The position numbers were made by a program, and so were the translations under genes. The notes beneath the pieces are model-generated. The model was not told the origin of the DNA. It worked only from the letters and a program-made list of their open reading frames with translations, and did not search any database. Below, piece after piece: positions 3,796-20,854 of a DNA stretch of 23,212 nucleotides. Within the stretch, counting starts at the first letter, position 1, and the number at the start of each line of letters is the position of its first letter. Source of the stretch: a virus; IMG/VR virus record IMGVR_UViG_3300021963_000676, positions 1-23,212 of that record. One strand, written 5' to 3'.

Positions 3796-4029
3796 ATGGA
3801 ACTTCTAGACATCATAAACGCCGTAATGCAGTGGGTGGTGGTGCCTGTCGCTGGCGGGTTGCTGATGATGTATCGCACACAGCAGAGCCACGCGACACAG
3901 ATCGCGGTTCTGCAAGCGGTCCACGAGGCAAACAAAGAAGCGCATGACCGGGAGTTCAAGGAAGTGCGGGAAAGCTTTAAGCGCATCTTCGAGAAGCTGG
4001 ACACTATTGAACTGGCTTTGCGCAAATGA
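3796..4029 (+). CDS. Small membrane-anchored coiled-coil protein (i-spanin candidate)
   Basis: 77 residues, with GGGGATAAGC before the ATG. Residues about 10-28 (AVMQWVVVPVAGGLLMMY) form one membrane segment. Residues about 32-75 are charged and heptad-like (KEAHDREFKEVRESFKRIF) and predict a coiled coil. An N-terminal anchor plus periplasmic coiled coil followed by an overlapping lipoprotein gene is the arrangement of Rz/Rz1-type spanin pairs. However, 77 residues is short and the partner lacks the usual proline-rich linker. The stop overlaps the next start (ATGA). It could equally be an unrelated membrane protein or a small XhlA-like protein. Confidence 0.6.
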   Translation: MELLDIINAVMQWVVVPVAGGLLMMYRTQQSHATQIAVLQAVHEANKEAHDREFKEVRESFKRIFEKLDTIELALRK

Positions 4030-4247
4030 AGTGGCTTCCACTCCTACTCCTAGCTGCGTGTGGTCCTATTGCAGTTACATCAATAGCCTACACCACAGCT
4101 TGCCCGGAAGGAGACGCGCAATGCGAAATTCGTCAAAACGCGCAGACCCTTTACTACATGGGCCAGTTCGACGCTGGGGACGCCTTGATGTGTGGCGGCG
4201 ATCCTGCTGTGCGGTCATCGCTTGGGGATGTCTGCTCGTCTTACTAA
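4026..4247 (+). CDS. Small Cys-rich lipoprotein (o-spanin candidate or other envelope protein)
   Basis: 73 residues. The N-terminus MKWLPLLLLAAC is a lipoprotein signal with lipobox L-A-A-C, so Cys12 should be lipidated after signal peptidase II cleavage. The mature part has four further cysteines (26, 33, 56, 70), enough for two disulphides. The start overlaps the preceding stop by ATGA and no good ribosome site is visible, so coupled translation is likely. The last 127 nt are also read in another frame as the start of the next gene. A spanin role is suggested by the coiled-coil neighbour and the endolysin downstream, but the Cys-rich sequence is not typical of o-spanins. Confidence 0.6.
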   Translation: MKWLPLLLLAACGPIAVTSIAYTTACPEGDAQCEIRQNAQTLYYMGQFDAGDALMCGGDPAVRSSLGDVCSSY

Positions 4248-4924
4248 GCCCTGCCGCAGCGCAAGTCACGGGCGACCTGAACACCAACAGTGGCAACACC
4301 AACTCCACTGTTGGCAGCAACAACCCCACCAGCAACGAAACTACAAACTACAACGGTGCCGGGGCTGCGCCATTCAGCCAGCCTGTTCCGACCGCTGCAG
4401 CGCCGACAGTCATGGGTGGCGGCGGCAATGATTCCTGCCTGATCCCAATCCAACAAGCCTTCCAGATCAGCATCTTTGGCAAAGCCGAAGGTAAAATGAT
4501 CCAAGACCCCGAGTGCAATCGTAGGAAAGACAGTCGCCTTCTTGGCACACCGCAGGACACGGGCGGGCTCGGGCTGCAGGTTAGCGGCATATCCCTGATG
4601 TGCAACAATGCCGCCGTCTTCAAGGCAATGGCTTTGGCGTCAACGCCCTGCCCCATTTACTCGATAACTGCCGGAAAGCTGATGGTTGGTCGAGAAGCCT
4701 ACGTTGCTATGCGTAGTCAACCCTCCATTTATGTGGTAGGATACACCGACGACCAGATTTTCTGGGACGAGTTTTTGCTGATGGGAGAGGAACTGCCCGA
4801 TGTCGAAATCAACCAAGATACTGGCCCTAGCCTTTCTGAGCGCTTCCGCCGCAACACAGGCGCTGGCGGATCAGACGATGCCGAATCTAAACCAAGCGGC
4901 GGAAACGATTCTGGGGCAAATTAG
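4121..4924 (+). CDS. Exported protein with Asn/Thr-rich linker and four-Cys domain
   Basis: 267 residues. The frame is open further upstream, but AAGGAG at 4109-4114 is ideally placed for ATG 4121. GTG 4190 would give a more ordinary 25-residue signal peptide, but with a weaker ribosome site. Residues 25-47 (WRRSCC...LLVLLSPAAAQ) form a Sec signal with cleavage after AAA at about residue 47. Residues 48-80 are Asn/Thr/Ser-rich and 81-103 are Pro/Ala/Gly-rich. A compact domain with Cys106, 132, 161 and 177 follows: PECNRRKDSRL, then SGISLMCNNAAVFKAM, then STPCP. From memory, similar secreted proteins (Asn/Thr linker, then C-x-R-x-K-x-S-R and an M-C...AM...TPCP pattern) occur in marine phages, with unknown role. 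The gene overprints both neighbours (127 and 125 nt). Confidence 0.75.
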   Translation: MRNSSKRADPLLHGPVRRWGRLDVWRRSCCAVIAWGCLLVLLSPAAAQVTGDLNTNSGNTNSTVGSNNPTSNETTNYNGAGAAPFSQPVPTAAAPTVMGGGGNDSCLIPIQQAFQISIFGKAEGKMIQDPECNRRKDSRLLGTPQDTGGLGLQVSGISLMCNNAAVFKAMALASTPCPIYSITAGKLMVGREAYVAMRSQPSIYVVGYTDDQIFWDEFLLMGEELPDVEINQDTGPSLSERFRRNTGAGGSDDAESKPSGGNDSGAN

Positions 4925-5561
4925 CGCATCCCAGATTCTAATGGCGGGGGCAACCCAAGCCGCTGCAACAGGCGACGTCTTGAACCCGGGCGTCATGCAG
5001 ACCGCCGCCATCAGCGACCAGATGCAAGCAGACTATAACAATGCTATCCAAGCAGTGATCGACGCCAACTACTACGGCGCTCGAGAACTTTTGTTGGATC
5101 AGCACGATCAGGCTATGCAGAACCTAAGCACTTCCGTGGACGACCTTGTCGATGCCACGCTGGTGCTGGCGACGGCATCCACCGTGGCGCAAATGGCGGA
5201 AGCCGCCGACACCGTGCCAGAGCAGCAAGCCCTGCAGGCTATGTTGGAAAACTCCCCTGAGATGGCAATCTCGGATGCGGAGCAGGGGGACTACAACACC
5301 GCGCTTGCAGCAGTGCAGCAATACGCCCGCGAGGCTGGCGCGTTCCTTGCTGCCGCCAACAACACCACCCTGACATCGACAGTTGATGCCTATGCCGCCA
5401 ATGCAAACGTCAACCTGTACGGCGGCTATGCGGCCTACAGCGCCACGGCGGACATCATCAACATCGGCGCGGGCAACGCCTTCGGTCTTGGTTTTCAGGG
5501 GTTTCTTGCCAGCAACGGTGTGAGCGCTGCTGACATCTATAGCGCAGGGTATGGATCGTGA
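4800..5561 (+). CDS. Exported helical protein of unknown function
   Basis: 253 residues, with GAGAGGA just before the ATG and a clear Sec signal peptide (MSKSTKILALAFLSASAATQALA, cleavage about residue 23). The signal supports this start despite a 125-nt overlap with the previous gene. The mature protein is Ala/Gln/Asn-rich and mostly helical in appearance, with no cysteine. The final 50 residues are Gly/Tyr/Ala-rich (LYGGYAAYSA, GAGNAFGLGFQGF). I do not recognise a family with certainty. Together with the two preceding exported proteins it forms a secreted cassette between the fibre genes and the lysis genes. It could act in the periplasm during lysis, in superinfection exclusion, or be a virion part that passes through Sec. 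Confidence 0.7.
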   Translation: MSKSTKILALAFLSASAATQALADQTMPNLNQAAETILGQISASQILMAGATQAAATGDVLNPGVMQTAAISDQMQADYNNAIQAVIDANYYGARELLLDQHDQAMQNLSTSVDDLVDATLVLATASTVAQMAEAADTVPEQQALQAMLENSPEMAISDAEQGDYNTALAAVQQYAREAGAFLAAANNTTLTSTVDAYAANANVNLYGGYAAYSATADIINIGAGNAFGLGFQGFLASNGVSAADIYSAGYGS

Positions 5562-5989
5562 GCGAAGAAGACAGTGGCACGACCCTTAAGGTCGGTGGCT
5601 TTGACGTAAAGGGCTGGTACTTTGCCGTGGCCCTTCCTGTGCTGTCTGGCCTATCTGGCGGCATTTATTATGCCTATGACACCGTCAATCGGTTCTGGGC
5701 CGTCGAGGAGAGCGTCAACGCCATCACGGATATGGAAAGCCGGGTGCAGACGCTTGAACAGGCCATCCAAGACAACGATGTGCGCGGGCTTGCGCCAAAG
5801 CTGTCGTCAATCGGAACTCAAATGCAGACGATCTTGGAACAGCAGAAGGCGCTGCTTGACCTGCGTTCTTCGGTGGAAAAGTCTGATGCCGTCACGTCCG
5901 GCCTAAAAGATAAGCTGGACAAATACGACCGCGACATCGAAGACCTGTGGAAAGCGATGGACGACCTTTCGAAGAACCCGATCCAATGA
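5558..5989 (+). CDS. Membrane-anchored coiled-coil protein, GTG start
   Basis: 143 residues, starting at GTG 5558 within the overlap GTGA that also ends the previous gene. Residues about 18-42 (GWYFAVALPVLSGLSGGIYYAY) form a membrane segment. Residues about 48-140 are strongly heptad-like (MESRVQTLEQAIQD, then DKLDKYDRDIEDLWKAM) and predict a long coiled coil. An N-terminal anchor with a long coiled coil is compatible with an i-spanin, at a more typical length than the 77-residue protein. The following small TM/Cys protein could be a partner. Function is not proven by the sequence, and overlapping stops and starts tie it to its neighbours. Confidence 0.7.
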   Translation: MSEEDSGTTLKVGGFDVKGWYFAVALPVLSGLSGGIYYAYDTVNRFWAVEESVNAITDMESRVQTLEQAIQDNDVRGLAPKLSSIGTQMQTILEQQKALLDLRSSVEKSDAVTSGLKDKLDKYDRDIEDLWKAMDDLSKNPIQ

Positions 5990-5997
5990 GGAAACAC

Positions 5998-6186
5998 ATG
6001 ACAGAAAAAATCCTGTGGCTCTTGTTTGCCCTAGCCGTAGCTGGGGTGTTTTGGGTATCGCAAGATGGGTTTTACCGTTACCCCTGCCAAGACCCAAAGA
6101 AGTGGGGACTGCCCGAGTGCCAGCCGCCAATCTGCACGGCGACGAAACAATGTCCTGAAGACCTGTTAGGAGATCAAAATGGCTAA
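5998..6186 (+). CDS. Small membrane protein with four-Cys periplasmic tail
   Basis: 62 residues from ATG 5998, chosen because TGAGGA lies six bases upstream. ATG 5986 (ATGA overlap with the previous stop) would add four residues. Residues 4-20 (KILWLLFALAVAGVFWV) form a membrane segment. The rest is a compact Pro/Cys module: RYPCQDP, LPECQPP, ICTATKQCPEDL. Four cysteines in about 26 residues suggest two disulphides in the periplasm. From memory, similar YPCQDP-type small proteins occur in marine phages and are uncharacterised. The 3' end overlaps the next gene by 8 nt. Confidence 0.7.
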   Translation: MTEKILWLLFALAVAGVFWVSQDGFYRYPCQDPKKWGLPECQPPICTATKQCPEDLLGDQNG

Positions 6187-6442
6187 GGAAGACGCCAGCC
6201 TGTTGGAAGCAAAACTTCGCTACTTTATCGGAATCGCCCTGACCATCATCTTGGGCGGGACGATTTTTGTGATCCTGTACAGCTTGGTCTTTGTGACCCA
6301 GCCCATGGGTGCATCCAGCGAAAACGACCGCAAGTTCTTTGAACTCTTGACCCCCATCGCCTCGTTCATCGTCGGGGCATTGGGCGGCGTTCTCGCGGCA
6401 AGCAACAACAAGGCTCAGAAGGAAGAGGAGACTGAAGAATGA
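6179..6442 (+). CDS. Two-TM membrane protein, holin candidate
   Basis: 87 residues, with TTAGGAGATCAAA before the ATG. Two hydrophobic segments lie at about residues 15-38 (FIGIALTIILGGTIFVILYSLVFV) and 55-72 (LTPIASFIVGALGGVLAAS), with charged termini (KAQKEEETEE at the end). Size, two-TM topology and position two genes before the endolysin fit a class II holin. From memory, small two-TM proteins with an LTPIxSFIVG second segment are widespread in marine phages and often unannotated. The stop overlaps the next start by ATGA. No direct evidence of pore formation can be read from sequence. Confidence 0.7.
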   Translation: MAKEDASLLEAKLRYFIGIALTIILGGTIFVILYSLVFVTQPMGASSENDRKFFELLTPIASFIVGALGGVLAASNNKAQKEEETEE

Positions 6443-6663
6443 TTGGCAAACTCGTAGGCGCTTTGATTGGGCGCAAGGTCAAAGAGAAGATGGTCGACGC
6501 AGTGCTGGATAAGGTCGATCTGCCTGACCCAGTGGAAGACGCCATTAAGATTGCCGCCACTGGCAACGCCGGGGATTTGCTTGCCAATATCGCGGGCAAG
6601 GCCGGGGCGGATCAAGATTCGATCATAGGGGCAGTTGTCAAAAAGGCAGGGAAAAAGAAATGA
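6439..6663 (+). CDS. Small basic hypothetical protein
   Basis: 74 residues, with GAGGAG 10-15 bases upstream and ATGA overlap with the previous gene. It has a short amphipathic N-terminus (MIGKLVGALIGRKVKEKM), a middle that may be helical (VEDAIKIAATGNAGDLLANIAGKAG) and a basic tail (VVKKAGKKK). There is no clear TM segment or known motif. The amphipathic start and conserved place between the holin candidate and endolysin hint at a peripheral membrane or lysis-timing role, which is inference only. Its stop overlaps the endolysin start by ATGA. Confidence 0.6.
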   Translation: MIGKLVGALIGRKVKEKMVDAVLDKVDLPDPVEDAIKIAATGNAGDLLANIAGKAGADQDSIIGAVVKKAGKKK

Positions 6664-7496
6664 CACTGACCAAAGACCACATCATCCACATTCTGCACGG
6701 CAATGCTGACGCCGCCGCTTGGGCCGACGCCGCGCTGGAAATCCTGCCCAAATACGAAATCAACACGCCGAACCGCATTGCTGGCTTCTTTGCCCAGTGC
6801 GGCCACGAGTCCATGAACTTCACGGCCTTGTCAGAGAACCTGAACTACCGCGCTGAAACCTTGGAAAAGTTGTTCTCAAAATACTTCTCGAAGGCAGGGC
6901 GTAACGCTGCCGACTATGCCAAACAGCCTGAGAAAATTGCCAACGTCATCTATGCTAACCGCATGGGTAATGGTGACACTGCGTCTGGGGAGGCCTATCT
7001 GTTCCGTGGGCGTGGTGTTATCCAATTGACGGGCAAGGACAATTACAGTGCCTTTGCGTCATCTATCAAGATGAGTCTTCCAGATGTGATCGACTATGTG
7101 CAGACGAAAAAGGGCGCTTTGGAAAGCGCTTGCTGGTATTGGAACAGCCGAAAGATCAACATCGCCTGCGACGAGGGCGACATTGTAAAGATGACCAAGC
7201 TAGTGAATGGGGGGTCCATTGGCCTAGATGATCGGCGCAAGCATTTTGAGCAGGCTTTGGCTGTCTTGGGCGGTGCTGTCCCTGCCCCCATCACCACTGC
7301 TGCAGCCATCCCCGGTGTCTTAAAAAAGGGTTCTACGGGCGAAGCCGTCAAGCGGATGCAGGCTGAACTTGGTCTTGAAGACGATGGCGTGTTTGGTCCG
7401 GGGACTGAAGCTGCTGTGAAGAAATGGCAAGCGGCAAATGGTCTTGCAGCTGATGGCATCGTTGGCCCAAAGACATTGGCTAAACTTCTCGGGTGA
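6660..7496 (+). CDS. Endolysin: GH19-like catalytic domain plus peptidoglycan-binding domain
   Basis: 278 residues. Residues 1-205 match the chitinase class I/GH19 fold used by phage lysozymes: GFFAQCGHESMNF with candidate catalytic Glu50, then GEAYLFRGRGVIQLTGKDNY with second candidate Glu111 just before the conserved FRGRG-x-IQLTG motif, then LVNGG and DDRRKHF near the domain end. A Pro/Ala linker (about 206-218) leads to a PG_binding_1-type repeat at about 219-278 (LKKGSTGEAVKRMQ, DGVFGPGTEAAVKKWQ, DGIVGPKTL). The enzyme should cleave the MurNAc-GlcNAc glycan backbone. It has no signal peptide, so it needs a holin, consistent with the upstream membrane genes. The binding domain at the C-terminus suits a Gram-negative peptidoglycan target. 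Confidence 0.9.
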   Translation: MTLTKDHIIHILHGNADAAAWADAALEILPKYEINTPNRIAGFFAQCGHESMNFTALSENLNYRAETLEKLFSKYFSKAGRNAADYAKQPEKIANVIYANRMGNGDTASGEAYLFRGRGVIQLTGKDNYSAFASSIKMSLPDVIDYVQTKKGALESACWYWNSRKINIACDEGDIVKMTKLVNGGSIGLDDRRKHFEQALAVLGGAVPAPITTAAAIPGVLKKGSTGEAVKRMQAELGLEDDGVFGPGTEAAVKKWQAANGLAADGIVGPKTLAKLLG

Positions 7497-14596: not shown

Positions 14597-17500
14597 ATGG
14601 CCGAAATCGTTGTCCCCGGCCCTATCAGTGGGCGTAGCTACGGGTTCAAGATCAAAGGCGATGCGCCGACTGTTGATGAACAGACCCGCATCGACGGAAT
14701 CTTGCGTCAGCGGGAAACAGACTTTCAGCAAGAGTACGCCGCAAAATTCGGCGCGCCCGTTGAAACCGGTGAAGGCGAAGGCGTACTTAACTACCTCGGG
14801 GAAATCCCCAAGGGTATCGCGCGCGGTGCCGTCGGTATGTTTGAGTCCGCCCTGCTTGGCGGCGCAGCTGCCCTGCCAGAACAATACGAAGCCCCAACAC
14901 GCGAAGGTATTCGCAGCGTCGCCTATGGTCTCAAGCCGCAGACTGACATGGGCATGGAGAACACGGTTGGAGGTACTCTCGGTGAAGCCCTTGGGTCTTT
15001 TGGCGCGCTGGGCATAACGGCCCTTTTGCCCGGGGGTCTGTATGCTGCACCGGCGCTCGCTATTGGTGCTGGTTCTGGTGAAGCATCTGAACGCGCCCGT
15101 GCTGCAGGTGCGACCGAGGAAGAACGCGGTACCGCCGCGCTGCTTGGTGCCCCTGTCGGCGCACTGGAACTCCTGCCGATCAAGTTCATTAAGGTTCTCG
15201 GTAAGCCCGCTACGGGCACGATCATGAACCGTCTGACCCGTGCCGCTGCCGAAGGTGGCGTTGAAGGCGCACAGGAAGCCGCTACCACCATTGCACAGAA
15301 CCTGATCGAGCAGGGCATCTATAACCCGGACAAGGGTACGTTCTCGGATACCGGTGAAGCTCTTGGCTACGGTGCCGGCACCGGTGCACTTGTGCAGGGG
15401 CTGCTTGACCTTCTGCCGGGCCGCAGCCGGACTGCGCCTACCCCTCCGCCGCAGGAAGAAGTCCCCGTCGCTCCAACTCTTGCCCTCCCTGCGCCTACCC
15501 AAGTCGCTGGCGCTCTACCGGCGCCGGGCACGCTTGATCCTTTGTCTGCCGCACAGACACCTGACGTTGTTGTAACGCCCCCGCCCCCCGGCGCTGTGCG
15601 CGGTTCGGCTACGTCTAATATCCCTTCGCTTTCCCCCGATGCCGCCGCAACCGCACGCTCTATCGGTAGTGATGCGCAGATGCTCAGTGCGGTCGAAGCT
15701 ATTGAAGCTGCGGGTAAAGCGACGACAAAGGTTTTGCAGGATGCGCTCGGGCTCAGCTACTCCGCAGCCAATGGTTTGATGCGCAAGCTGGAAGGCGCTG
15801 GGGCTGTATCCAAATACCAAAATGGCAAAGAGCGCGTCCTGACGCTGCCATTTAAGGTTTCCGCAATCCGCCAAGCACAGGCACCTGCAGCTCCGGCGGA
15901 AGCTCCGGTCGAGCCTACTGTCAAGACCGAGCCCACCACTGTGCCGAAAGCTACGGTTACAGAGGCCGCTAAAGTAGAGGTGCCGAGCGTAAACGAGGCT
16001 GTTGCAAAAGCCGCGGTTGTCCCAGACGAACCGCCGGCCCCCGTTGTTGTGCCGAAGCAAAAAGCGCGAAAAGCCGCAGCGGTCGATGCCGGCAAAGCCG
16101 CCCCCATGCAGGAGGTTGCAGATGTCCCCGAGATTGCGGCGGTTGAGCCGGGAGAAGTGGGAGCTGGCGTTCCAAGTGGTGGACAAAGCGTGGAAGGAGG
16201 CGGAGGGGCCGTTGACGTCGCTGCAAGCGCCGCCGGGATTGAAGCACCTGCAGGCGAAGGACTGGGAGGAAGTGTGTCGGACACTGTGGGTGCTGCAGCA
16301 GCAACAACAGCAGAGCCCAACGCACTGACAGCTCCGGCGTTTACCGGTTCGCCGACCGAATTGCAGGTACGTGACGCTGAAAAAGCGCTTGCGCCAATGC
16401 AGGCAGTTCGTGAAGTCGCGGCCAATTCGGCTGCGCAAAGTGAACTTGATGCCGCATGGACGGCGCGGGTAGCAGATAAGCCGGAACTGGCTTCACTCAT
16501 CGAAGAATACTCGGTCCCCGACGCACTGGTTCTGGACGACCCGACGACGTCGGAAGATAAGCGCAAGGTGCTGGACCTGTTTCAGCCCGGCGCCGTTAAG
16601 AAAGGCAAGGCCGGCATGGCCCCTGCCGAGAATGCACAGATGTACTTCTCGCGGTTCAAGCGCCCAATCGACGCGCTCGAGTTCATCGTTGCCGATGCCA
16701 CGCTCAAGAATCAGCGGTTCAAGGGTGAGAAAGCGCTCGAGGCCGAAACCGGTACACTACCGGCAGGTGACGAAACAATCAGCCCCGTGGAACGAGAGTT
16801 CTTTGATGGCATGACCGCGGAGCGCGCAAAGGAAGCGCTTAAGTGGGTCGAAACCAACATGTCCCCGCAGGCACAGGCCAAGGTGCGTGAACTGCAGCGC
16901 AAGTATAAGCAAGCGCAAGAAGCTAAGGTCCCTAATAAGGTGCTGTCGTCTGCGCCAAGCTCTACCGCTATCGGTGGGCGCGCCGCTAACGCAGAAGAAC
17001 GTCAGGCCATGGAGCAGGAGCTGGCCGTGCAGGCGACCGAAGACGCCGCAAAAAAGGCAGAGTCGAAAGCACTAGCTGGTGCTGCACGCACACGGATGCA
17101 GGGGCTGGAGAACCTTCTTAGCGCCGTACAGGAGACGAAGGCACCGATACCAAAGCGCGCGCTGCCCAAGACAAAACTTACCGACGAAGACCAAATCGAC
17201 CTCGTAACAGACAAAATCCTCGGGCTGCGGTTCAACCGCCCGCAGGAAGTTCTGGACCTTTACACCCCGCTGCACCCCGCGGTGATCAACGCGCTGCGTC
17301 GTGGTAATCTTACGCTGGCCCTGCGCGCCTTGCAGCTCCACGCGCCCAATGATCGGGTTAAACGCATCGCCCGTGCACTTGCCCCCTACGCCGAAGGCAC
17401 CTCGGTGCGGCTTGTGGACGGCCTGCGCGACGAAGCCACCGAAGCTAACCTCAATGGGCAGTATCGGCGGATCGGCGGCACAAGCAAAATTCTGTTGGAC

Positions 17501-20500
17501 TCCCTCTACGGCACGAACGTCATGACGTTGCTGCACGAGATGACGCATGCCGCCACCGCAAAAGAATTGCTGAATAAAGCGTCGCCGCTGCGCAAGCGTA
17601 TGGAAAAAATCTTCGCCGACGTAGCGCCGAAGCTTGGTAAGCTAAACGGGCAGAAGAACCTGTTTGAGTTTGTCGCTGATGCTTTCTCCGACCCGCAGTT
17701 CCAGAGCGAACTGGCCCGCCTGTATCCCGATGGCAAGCCTATTTCAGCGCGCGGGCGGTTCCTGCACGAGGTGACGAACTTCGTGCGTCGGTTGCTTGGC
17801 ATGCCCCTAAAAGCACTTGGCAGCGCGCTCGACGTCACTGACCAAATGGTCATGGAGATGCTGGACTCCCCGATCAGCGCAACACAGTTTTCCTCGCCGC
17901 AAGAGGAAGCGGTGCTACTCAATCGCGTTGCACAGGTCGACGGCTCCTTCCCGGGCCGCACCAAGGAGTTCGCCCAGCAGTTCGGCGACGACGCATCCAA
18001 TGTGTTGGCCGGCGCTTCTTGGGGTGCAAAGCGCACCATTCTCGGCTTCCTAGGCATGCAGGCTCTTGGTGACGTATCCGCGCACTATAAGGTCGACGGC
18101 GCCTATGATCTCCAGAATGCTGTGCAGCAGATGGACGCGGCATCTATCAAGTCCGACCAAGAGGTAGACGGTGTTCTGCAGATCGCCCAGAAGTGGGTGA
18201 AGAACAACCCCAACCTTAAGTCGGTGTTCGACCGCGTCGTCACGCGCTCCACAGTCAACCAAGTTGACCCCTCCCTACCGCGCGCCAAGGCCATCAAAAA
18301 GTACGGCGCTGGTTCGGAAAAAATGGGCATGTACGATGCACTCCAGAAAGACTGGGCTGCCATTGGCAAAGACGGCCATGACCTATACAACAACATGCGC
18401 CAGCTGTATCGCACGCAATACGAGCGTCTGCGTGAAGCGCTTTCGGGCAAGATCGACTTCATCCTGTCGTCTAATCCTGCGCTGGCTGCAGAAGTCAAGA
18501 AGAGCATCTACACCAAGTTCTTCGACATGAACCGCCTTGAACCCTACTTCCCGCTGGCTCGCAAGGGCGACTACTGGCTGGAATACAGCGCGTTCGACCC
18601 CGAGACCGGCACCACGGAGCCGGTGAAAGAAGCATACGAAAGCCCCCGTGCACGTGACCGTGCCGCCAAAGAGCTTGAGGCTATGCCGGAAGTGTCCAAG
18701 GGGCAGGACGGCAAGCCGATCTACAACTACTACTCCACGCTCGACATAGTGCAGAAAGGGCGCACGCCCGACTCGCTGTTTGTGCGTGACACGCTGTCTA
18801 TCATTCGGACTAACCTTGCCAACACCAACGTGGATGCGGCCACGGCGCAGAGCATTCAGCAGGAAATCACACGGCTGTTCGTCGACGCCCTGCCAGAAAC
18901 GTCGTTTGCCAAGTCCCTGCAGCGTCGTAAGAACACCCGTGGCTACATGGAGGACTCCCTCGAAGCGCTCAAAACTAAGGGCTACAGCCTTGGGCGTCAG
19001 GGTGTGCGGTATGCCTACAGCAACAAGATCAGGGCTGTGTCCGACGCCATTCAGGATCAGGCGCGCAACACCAACGACCAGAACAAGGTCGCGGTGGTCG
19101 AAGAACTTGTGGCACGGGCCAACTTCGCCACCAATCCGCCCGCGGATATGTTCGAGCGCATGGTGCAGACTGTTAACCGCTCAGCCTTCACCTTCACTAT
19201 CGGCCTGAACGTGTCGTCGGCGCTTGTGAACTTGTCGTCGGTTCCGGTTGTGCTGTATCCGTATCTGGCTGGACGCTACGGAAGCAAGTCGGCTGCCACT
19301 GCAATCGGCAATGCCTACAAGCTATTTATGAACAGCGGGCTGTCACGAGAGCTCGAGCTCCCTGCGCAGTTCCAAGGACAGAAGACGACCAAGGTGCGGT
19401 CGATGCCGTCTATCGACAACTACTTCGTCCTGAACAGCAACAACGAATACGTCCTGCGTGACGACATTGCACCGGAACTTCGTCCGATGCTGCAGGAGCT
19501 CGCTCCTCTCGTGGATGTCGCATCTAAGAACGGCCAGCTGAACCGCTCGATCTTCTACGATAGCATTGGCGCCGAAGATGTTGGGCGTGCACGGGGCTTC
19601 GGGGACCGCTTCGCGGCCATCTCTGGCGCTATGTTCCACCAAGTCGAACGGGCCAACCGGCAGGTCGCGCTCGTTGCGGCCTATAACCTAGAGCTCGCCC
19701 GTCTGCGTAACAAGCCTACGGAAGCTGAACGGGGGCTTACCGAAGCGCAGCGGCGCACCCGCGCTGCCGAGCGCGCTGTGTATCAGGCAACGGAAACCGG
19801 TGGTGGTTCCACGCTTGCGACTGCACCGCGCTGGGCCCAGAAGGGTATCGGACGCGTGGCCATGATGTTCAAGAACTACGGCCTGTCCATGTTCTACCTG
19901 CAGATGAAGCTGGCAAAGCAGCTGACGATAGGCAGCAATGACCCGGACTTCACACCAGAGGATCGTCGGGTTGCCTTCAAGCAGCTTGTCGGCCTGCAGC
20001 TTTCGTCCTTCGCGCTTGCCGGTATCGCAGGCATGCCGCTCTATGGGCTTGTGTCCACCGTGGCAGATGCGTTCCTTGGGGACGACGAAGAAGATGCAGA
20101 CATGCTGACCCGCCGCTACCTTGGCGAAGGGCTCTACAAGGGCTTCCTGTCTGAAATCACTGGGCTCGACATCTCGTCGCGTATCGGTCTTACCGGACTT
20201 CTAATCCGCGAGAACCGCTATAACACCGACCCGTCTGCGGAAGAGACCCTTGTAGCCAACCTCGGCGGTCCCGCGTGGTCTACTGCCACGCAGCTTGGTC
20301 GCGGTGTGTCGGAGTTCTACAACGCCATGACCGGCGAAGAAGGCGATATGGTGCGCGGTATCGAGAACATGGTGCCGGCAGCGGTCCGCAACTTCATCAA
20401 GGCGGGAAGATATCTATCCGATGGCGCTTCCATCGAAACGCGCCGCAAGGACGTTATCACCGGTGATCTTGGGGCCAGCGACTTGCTCGGGCAGATGCTC

Positions 20501-20854
20501 GGGTTTACGCCGACGAAGGCCACGCTGCAGCAGGACATTAACCAGCTCAAGGTTAAGATCAGCAACGCGGTATCCAAGAAGCGTTCGGACCTGTCCAAGC
20601 TCTACTACATCGCCCTGCGTGAAGGTGACATCGAAGGGGCCCGCGAAGTTCTGGAAGACATCCGTGCGTTCAACGAGGATGTTAAGGGCCGGTTCCCTGA
20701 TGCAGTGATCGACAACGAGTTCCTTAAGCGGTCCTTGAAGAGCCACCAACGCACATCGGAACAGATGTCCAGCGGTGTGTCGGTTAACCCTGCGGTGCAA
20801 GAAGGACTGGCTGACCTGCAGGCGATGTATAATAAGGGCGTGCAGCTCTTCTAA
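14597..20854 (+). CDS. Giant polyvalent virion protein with FtsK-gamma-like and zincin-like domains
   Basis: 2085 residues; GCGAGG precedes the ATG. Domains by residue: 1-55, an N-terminal module (VPGPISGRSYGFKIKGDAPT); 68-275, several hydrophobic Gly/Ala segments (KGIARGAVGMFESALLGGAA, TALLPGGLYAAPALAIGAG), potentially membrane-active; 276-350, Pro/Ala-rich linker; 355-419, winged helix like FtsK gamma (KATTKVLQDALGLSYSAANG, then GAGAVS); 420-590, acidic/Pro/Ala linker; 590-780, helical; about 900-1110, zincin-like region with H980-E981-M-T-H984 and downstream E1024 (FEFVADAF); then a long helical part; hydrophobic stretches at about 1531-1565 and 1797-1830; and a helical C-terminus. This matches large polyvalent phage proteins that are packaged and ejected. 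No transglycosylase motif was recognised. It ends one base before a minus-strand terminator. Confidence 0.8.
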   Translation: MAEIVVPGPISGRSYGFKIKGDAPTVDEQTRIDGILRQRETDFQQEYAAKFGAPVETGEGEGVLNYLGEIPKGIARGAVGMFESALLGGAAALPEQYEAPTREGIRSVAYGLKPQTDMGMENTVGGTLGEALGSFGALGITALLPGGLYAAPALAIGAGSGEASERARAAGATEEERGTAALLGAPVGALELLPIKFIKVLGKPATGTIMNRLTRAAAEGGVEGAQEAATTIAQNLIEQGIYNPDKGTFSDTGEALGYGAGTGALVQGLLDLLPGRSRTAPTPPPQEEVPVAPTLALPAPTQVAGALPAPGTLDPLSAAQTPDVVVTPPPPGAVRGSATSNIPSLSPDAAATARSIGSDAQMLSAVEAIEAAGKATTKVLQDALGLSYSAANGLMRKLEGAGAVSKYQNGKERVLTLPFKVSAIRQAQAPAAPAEAPVEPTVKTEPTTVPKATVTEAAKVEVPSVNEAVAKAAVVPDEPPAPVVVPKQKARKAAAVDAGKAAPMQEVADVPEIAAVEPGEVGAGVPSGGQSVEGGGGAVDVAASAAGIEAPAGEGLGGSVSDTVGAAAATTAEPNALTAPAFTGSPTELQVRDAEKALAPMQAVREVAANSAAQSELDAAWTARVADKPELASLIEEYSVPDALVLDDPTTSEDKRKVLDLFQPGAVKKGKAGMAPAENAQMYFSRFKRPIDALEFIVADATLKNQRFKGEKALEAETGTLPAGDETISPVEREFFDGMTAERAKEALKWVETNMSPQAQAKVRELQRKYKQAQEAKVPNKVLSSAPSSTAIGGRAANAEERQAMEQELAVQATEDAAKKAESKALAGAARTRMQGLENLLSAVQETKAPIPKRALPKTKLTDEDQIDLVTDKILGLRFNRPQEVLDLYTPLHPAVINALRRGNLTLALRALQLHAPNDRVKRIARALAPYAEGTSVRLVDGLRDEATEANLNGQYRRIGGTSKILLDSLYGTNVMTLLHEMTHAATAKELLNKASPLRKRMEKIFADVAPKLGKLNGQKNLFEFVADAFSDPQFQSELARLYPDGKPISARGRFLHEVTNFVRRLLGMPLKALGSALDVTDQMVMEMLDSPISATQFSSPQEEAVLLNRVAQVDGSFPGRTKEFAQQFGDDASNVLAGASWGAKRTILGFLGMQALGDVSAHYKVDGAYDLQNAVQQMDAASIKSDQEVDGVLQIAQKWVKNNPNLKSVFDRVVTRSTVNQVDPSLPRAKAIKKYGAGSEKMGMYDALQKDWAAIGKDGHDLYNNMRQLYRTQYERLREALSGKIDFILSSNPALAAEVKKSIYTKFFDMNRLEPYFPLARKGDYWLEYSAFDPETGTTEPVKEAYESPRARDRAAKELEAMPEVSKGQDGKPIYNYYSTLDIVQKGRTPDSLFVRDTLSIIRTNLANTNVDAATAQSIQQEITRLFVDALPETSFAKSLQRRKNTRGYMEDSLEALKTKGYSLGRQGVRYAYSNKIRAVSDAIQDQARNTNDQNKVAVVEELVARANFATNPPADMFERMVQTVNRSAFTFTIGLNVSSALVNLSSVPVVLYPYLAGRYGSKSAATAIGNAYKLFMNSGLSRELELPAQFQGQKTTKVRSMPSIDNYFVLNSNNEYVLRDDIAPELRPMLQELAPLVDVASKNGQLNRSIFYDSIGAEDVGRARGFGDRFAAISGAMFHQVERANRQVALVAAYNLELARLRNKPTEAERGLTEAQRRTRAAERAVYQATETGGGSTLATAPRWAQKGIGRVAMMFKNYGLSMFYLQMKLAKQLTIGSNDPDFTPEDRRVAFKQLVGLQLSSFALAGIAGMPLYGLVSTVADAFLGDDEEDADMLTRRYLGEGLYKGFLSEITGLDISSRIGLTGLLIRENRYNTDPSAEETLVANLGGPAWSTATQLGRGVSEFYNAMTGEEGDMVRGIENMVPAAVRNFIKAGRYLSDGASIETRRKDVITGDLGASDLLGQMLGFTPTKATLQQDINQLKVKISNAVSKKRSDLSKLYYIALREGDIEGAREVLEDIRAFNEDVKGRFPDAVIDNEFLKRSLKSHQRTSEQMSSGVSVNPAVQEGLADLQAMYNKGVQLF

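Follow-up and report, generated by a model that had tools for sequence, protein, structure and literature searches.

The closest described counterparts of the locus reported here are overlapped or embedded two-component spanins, such as LysB/LysC of phage P2 and Rz/Rz1 of phage lambda (PMC6139136). In 338 surveyed prokaryotic genomes no co-directional overlap longer than 60 nt was judged to be real, and the longest real overlap of that survey, holD/rimI in enterobacteria, measures 56 nt at most (PMC2478687). Gene overlaps in DNA viruses have a median length of about 16 nt (PMC8903798).

We analysed a 23.2-kb virus contig (IMGVR_UViG_3300021963_000676, positions 1 to 23,212), the whole of which is called the window below. 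From left to right it carries tail-fibre-like genes, a close-packed series S-L-M-H-C-T-holin-like-X-endolysin, and virion genes. A preliminary description of this DNA had placed three exported-protein genes (L, M and H) in overlaps of 127 and 125 nt in different frames, and the open reading frame coordinates and overlap lengths proved to be exact. The features of the series are as follows.

3796-4029, plus strand: S, a 77-aa inner-membrane coiled-coil protein with one transmembrane (TM) segment; its stop and the L start overlap as ATGA
4026-4247, plus strand: L, a lipoprotein of 73 aa with a LAAC lipobox (Cys12) and four more conserved Cys
4108-4114, plus strand: Shine-Dalgarno sequence AAGGAGA for M, within L; includes the L Gly29 codon, which is never GGC
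4121-4247, plus strand: L-M overlap of 127 nt, M in the +2 frame of L
4124-4189, plus strand: free-rider half of the L-M overlap, M residues 2-23 over a conserved L domain; open but unconstrained in the M frame
4193-4246, plus strand: dual-constrained half of the L-M overlap, M signal-peptide core over the L C-terminus; L pS reduced, hydrophobicity above that of recodings in the window clade
4121-4924, plus strand: M, an exported N/T/S-rich protein of 267 aa with four invariant Cys (C106, C132, C161, C177)
4783-4791, plus strand: Shine-Dalgarno sequence GGGAGAGGA for H, within M; AGGA core kept in 93 of 93 loci
4800-4924, plus strand: M-H overlap of 125 nt, H in the +1 frame of M
4802-4852, plus strand: dual-constrained half of the M-H overlap, M 228-244 (PSLSERFRR motif) over the H signal peptide
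4853-4921, plus strand: free-rider half of the M-H overlap, M tail 245-267 over the end of the H signal peptide and the mature N-terminus
4800-5561, plus strand: H, an exported alpha-helical protein of 253 aa
5558-5989, plus strand: C, inner-membrane TM segment and coiled coil with a C-terminal NPI/NPL motif; GTGA overlap with H
5986-6186, plus strand: T, a small TM/Cys protein
6179-6442, plus strand: holin-like protein with two TM segments (PHROG 9987 holin, E=0.006; PHROG 25359, function unknown, E=1.5e-14)
6439-6663, plus strand: X, a small protein
6660-7496, plus strand: endolysin with a GH19-like and a peptidoglycan-binding domain (PHROG 181, E=1.4e-71; PF01471, E=3e-17)

The endolysin also matched PF00182 with E=4.8e-5, just below the family cut-off. 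Among the genes outside the series, a 2085-aa protein is encoded at 14597-20854, the initial 801 residues of which have no PHROG match. The other junctions of the gene series are overlaps of 1-8 nt or a gap, and those between S and the endolysin are overlaps of 4-8 nt, compared with 127 nt for L-M and 125 nt for M-H. As in spanin pairs, the products are phage envelope proteins encoded near an endolysin, and the DNA for the downstream signal sequence also codes, in another frame, for part of the upstream protein; the preliminary description had seen downstream signal peptides over upstream C-termini, and this was borne out in both overlaps. Unlike in spanin pairs, the lipoprotein is encoded upstream here, the downstream members have ordinary signal peptides, two overlaps follow each other in series, and there is no sequence kinship with spanins beyond weak matches of S and C. 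The locus resembles holD/rimI in having a real co-directional overlap that is kept among relatives, and differs from it in overlap length.

Relatives of L, M and H were sought in phage records and in IMG/VR. Pattern-limited scans yielded 402 loci with M relatives, 172 with H relatives and 194 with L relatives. All three occurred together in the Roseobacter phages CRP-810 and CRP-207, in MW202675 and in about 100 non-identical IMG/VR loci; the cassettes of the three named records have the same genes in the same order as the window, including C and both overlaps. L and H accompanied M in every fetched locus with enough flank, except for the M-only pelagiphage HTVC023P. With this exception, L, M and H form an inseparable block in these loci, in line with the compact cassette that had been proposed for them. 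A scan of genome contigs from a bacterial genome collection revealed no cellular or prophage relative of M, and the L-M-H block therefore looks phage-only. Among the 60 loci in which the flank was long enough, 57 have C, T, the holin-like gene, X and the endolysin downstream of the block. The lipobox of L lies at an invariant Cys in all aligned relatives and reads LAAC, LASC, VSAC, LSAC or LAGC. The slot of S is taken in relatives by small membrane proteins of at least three unrelated kinds, with a 4-nt junction to L in 81 of 90 cases; this gene swapping just before L marks the border of the overlapped block as a recombination boundary.

Overlap lengths were counted in the 93 loci in which all three starts could be placed, and both overlaps were present in every one of them. 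The L-M overlap measures 121 nt in 78 loci and 127 nt in 12, and otherwise 130, 107 or 43 nt. The M-H overlap measures 107 nt in 77 loci and 125 nt in 12, and otherwise 119, 116, 161 or 80 nt. For the named relatives, the respective L-M and M-H values are 43 and 161 nt in CRP-810, which combines its short L-M overlap with a compact signal peptide, 107 and 80 nt in CRP-207, and 121 and 107 nt in MW202675.

To describe selection in the shared DNA, divergence was compared in the clade of the window (12 sequences) and its sister clade (78 sequences); paired values below are given in this order. Over M 2-23, the pS of L is not reduced (0.62/0.59), and M itself shows a pN/pS of 2.9/1.7. Only under the M signal-peptide core does the pS of L fall, to 0.36/0.32. 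The M-H overlap is divided in a similar way. The pS of M drops from 0.61/0.55 in its single-coded part to 0.28/0.25 over the H signal peptide, where M 228-244 has a pN/pS of 0.27/0.32. M 245-267 has a pN/pS of 3.0/1.9, and H in the same DNA one of 0.20/0.30.

The frames that drift in aa sequence are nevertheless kept open. Third-base changes were reconstructed on a tree of 82 sequences and counted as at risk where a T would create a stop in the other frame; parsimony was used because related sequences make raw counts overstate independence. For M 2-23, T was involved in none of 37 at-risk changes, compared with 81 of 156 changes not at risk (Fisher P=1.4e-10). The corresponding counts were 0 of 8 versus 65 of 88 for M 25-42 (P=6e-5), 0 of 9 versus 26 of 43 for H 2-18 (P=0.002) and 0 of 22 versus 22 of 82 for the M tail (P=0.003). 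Outside the overlap, H showed no avoidance of T, which took part in 149 of 258 at-risk changes. By raw counts in the sister clade, 54.5 stop-making codons were expected over M 2-23 and none was observed. In both the L-M and the M-H overlap, each frame is thus either constrained or kept open: judged from these substitution patterns, each overlap consists of one half constrained in both frames and one free-rider half that is only kept open.

Synonymous recodings of L left 48 M codons open in only 12% of cases in the window clade and 23% in the sister clade. In the window clade, the hydrophobic core of M exceeded every L recoding (mean P 0.000); in the sister clade the excess was weak (mean P 0.105). 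The same comparison for H over M gave P values of 0.034 and 0.011 for the window and sister clades. The persistence in 93 of 93 loci, together with the small share of open recodings and the hydrophobicity beyond every window-clade recoding, indicates that the overlaps are not due to chance.

In each of the 93 loci, CRP-207 and CRP-810 among them, H starts with an ATG that is preceded by the conserved AGGA core. M starts with ATG in 25 loci and with GTG in 68; its frame is open without any earlier start in 67 of the 93, and an in-frame TGA lies just upstream of the M start in 53 of 78 sister-clade sequences. The Gly29 codon of L, which forms part of the Shine-Dalgarno sequence of M, is GGA, GGG or GGT in 90 sequences; its 19 inferred changes all run among these three codons and none leads to GGC, the codon used for 57% of Gly elsewhere. 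L codon 32, which as CAA provides the ATG of M, is CAA in 12 of 12 window-clade sequences, with CAG commoner elsewhere. L codon 55 (window 4188-4190), at M residue 24, is the rare Leu codon CTA in 29 of 78 sister-clade sequences, where 5% would be expected, and CTA at this place creates an ATG in the M frame. RNA folding predictions show no stronger pairing near the M and H starts than near other starts.

Three alternative readings of the overlaps have to be weighed against these data. In cellular genomes, almost every long co-directional overlap proved to be an annotation artefact (Palleja et al., PMC2478687), and chance open frames or mispredicted starts might likewise be suspected here. The conserved starts, Shine-Dalgarno sequences and overlap lengths, the synonymous constraint and the avoidance of stops in 82-93 phage sequences make this extremely improbable. 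A more specific proposal is that translation of M begins only at residue 24 (in the window GTG 4190; ATG, TTG, GTG or CTG in relatives), so that the L-M overlap would shrink to 58 nt and M 2-23 would remain untranslated. The unslowed synonymous sites of L over M 2-23 and the free drift of these residues would fit such a start, as would the signal peptide of normal length that it would give and the sister clade's over-use of CTA at L codon 55. If M 2-23 were untranslated, however, the avoidance of stops through 37 inferred third-base changes would be needless; the absence of GGC at the Shine-Dalgarno glycine and the retained CAA at L codon 32 in the window clade also speak for the upstream start, and at position 24 about 15 of 93 loci have no ATG, GTG or TTG and no conserved Shine-Dalgarno sequence precedes it. 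We consider a sole start at M24 quite unlikely. The stop avoidance between 4121 and 4190 and the Shine-Dalgarno glycine favour the M start at 4121 over GTG 4190, and these comparisons support 4121 and 4800 as the starts of M and H. A second start at M24 is possible, since sister-clade sequences have an ATG there more often than expected.

The overlaps might also serve translational coupling, a form of the linked expression suggested by the preliminary description, and thereby fix the stoichiometry of L, M and H, and the remaining junctions of the series are indeed short coupling-type overlaps of 4-8 nt. Termination-reinitiation works over short distances, however, and in the window more than 120 nt separate the starts of M and H from the upstream stops beyond them. 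Both starts also have their own strong Shine-Dalgarno sequence, and predicted pairing near them is not stronger than elsewhere. Coupling by re-initiation at this overlap length is thus unlikely, and improbable as the purpose of the overlaps. Taken together, the comparisons argue very strongly that L-M and M-H are two genuine, selectively maintained and conserved dual-coding overlaps.

Several suggestions of the preliminary description bear on this reading. The comparison of homologous loci it had recommended showed both frames and the start sites to be kept (93 loci), and the recommended comparison of synonymous and non-synonymous change supported both overlaps through constraint and stop avoidance. 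Later starts in relatives, or missing upstream tails, had been named as outcomes that would speak against the overlaps; neither was encountered for H and the tails, leaving the possible additional start at M24. The tail of M from residue 227 had been taken for an extension produced by overprinting. This agrees with M 245-267 (pN/pS about 3 and 1.9) and disagrees with M 228-244 (0.27-0.32), which is conserved in its own frame around PSLSERFRR, so that the whole tail cannot be regarded as filler. L ends in a conserved Cys-containing domain that is no extension, and no sign of a fusion of exported proteins was seen.

M matched PHROG 20531, a family of unknown function (E=2.4e-5, residues 54-196), to which gp45 of HTVC023P also belongs (E=2.8e-18 to this family). 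Proteins of this family (HTVC023P gp45, HTVC033P gp46, Mosig_00202 and Baldr_001) share with M an N/T/S-rich exported N-terminus and a four-Cys core. In the Pelagibacter phages, by contrast, neither an L gene nor an H homologue was found, and the M tails are rich in K/E and do not carry PSLSERFRR. There, the M-like gene is followed by a gene for a large exported protein and one for a TM-coiled-coil protein, with overlaps of at most 14 nt or gaps at the junctions. This TM-coiled-coil protein mostly ends in NPL, like C of the CRP phages; C of the window ends in NPI. The Pelagibacter phages with this triplet (loci L011 and L213-L217) range widely in size, from 32 to 141 kb.

Because the M-like genes of SAR11 phages have no long overlaps, the overlaps look like a compaction of an older module, and we infer that they arose in this way from separate genes. 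M would have acquired an upstream ribosome-binding site within L, which would have added the neutral leader M 2-23, and the M stop would have moved into H, which would have given M its neutral tail. As the sequences show, M and H each have a Shine-Dalgarno sequence of their own within the gene before them, and their signal-peptide cores are read from DNA that also codes for the conserved upstream C-terminus.

Pfam searches gave no match for L, M or H. L had no PHROG match, spanin families included, and H no significant family match. Profile searches against the PDB revealed none for L and M and only chance-level matches for H (E >= 0.07), and the structure predictions for M and H (pLDDT 42 and 35) were too low for a fold. 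L has the lipobox expected of the lipoprotein of a two-component spanin. S matched PHROG 5151 ('Rz-like spanin') weakly, with E=0.005, and the spanin-type matches of S and C together (E 0.005-0.012) are too weak to place them in a spanin family by sequence; on reading their sequences, both look like an N-terminal TM segment followed by a coiled coil. Two GenBank labels were not upheld. CRP-810 gp53, the M homologue at L009 4971-5726, is named 'OmpA family', and neither it nor M of the window has a Pfam OmpA match. CRP-810 gp51 and CRP-207 gp73, which correspond to C, are named 'lysozyme' and show no lysozyme domain, only weak coiled-coil-like matches. These 'lysozyme'-labelled homologues of C lie at L009 6357-6779 and L010 3292-3873.

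S, L, M, H and C appear to form an envelope module whose most likely role, at slightly less than an even chance, is the outer-membrane step of lysis in a spanin-like manner, as judged from gene neighbourhood and topology. S and C would be its inner-membrane coiled coils, L its outer-membrane lipoprotein, and M and H its periplasmic components. In HTVC023P and HTVC033P, the M-like genes also have M15 endolysin or lysozyme genes nearby. The main alternative is that the module acts in superinfection exclusion or alters the host envelope in some other way during infection, which we consider possible but unlikely. Exclusion systems are known to include lipoproteins and periplasmic proteins, and the exported lipoprotein and periplasmic proteins of the module fit such components. 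In HTVC202P, Baldr and CRP-207 the module is located near terminase genes, and in these three and Mosig no endolysin is annotated close by, doubtful labels aside. Against exclusion stand the order with a holin-like gene and the endolysin, conserved in 57 of 60 loci, the coiled-coil inner-membrane partners S and C, which resemble the topology of i-spanins, and the fact that L, M and H are never apart in this phage group. If the outer-membrane lysis role holds, the module may account for spanin functions that have gone unrecognised in these phages. The stronger proposal, that L-M-H-C (with S) might be an undescribed multi-part outer-membrane-disruption machine of Alphaproteobacteria phages that replaces classical spanins and is inherited only as a unit through two welding overlaps, is a tentative one that we would not favour on present comparisons.

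Two serial overlaps of more than 100 nt are here backed by about 90 phage sequences, although long co-directional overlaps are usually dismissed. The clean split into a dual-constrained and a stop-avoiding half makes the locus a good natural test of how overlaps originate and persist. Because gene callers miss L, M or H in published relatives, current annotation conceals this exported module, which belongs to common aquatic phages. L is omitted from the GenBank entries of CRP-810 and CRP-207 and H from that of MW202675, in which the M start is also annotated 285 nt late; the H start is annotated late in CRP-810 and CRP-207. The cause is apparently that gene callers avoid long overlaps. The papers on CRP-810 and CRP-207 contain nothing specific on the L, M and H genes. 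The missed or shortened genes in relatives are located at L009 4753-5013, L010 1737-1940, and L008 981-1760 and 1654-2403.
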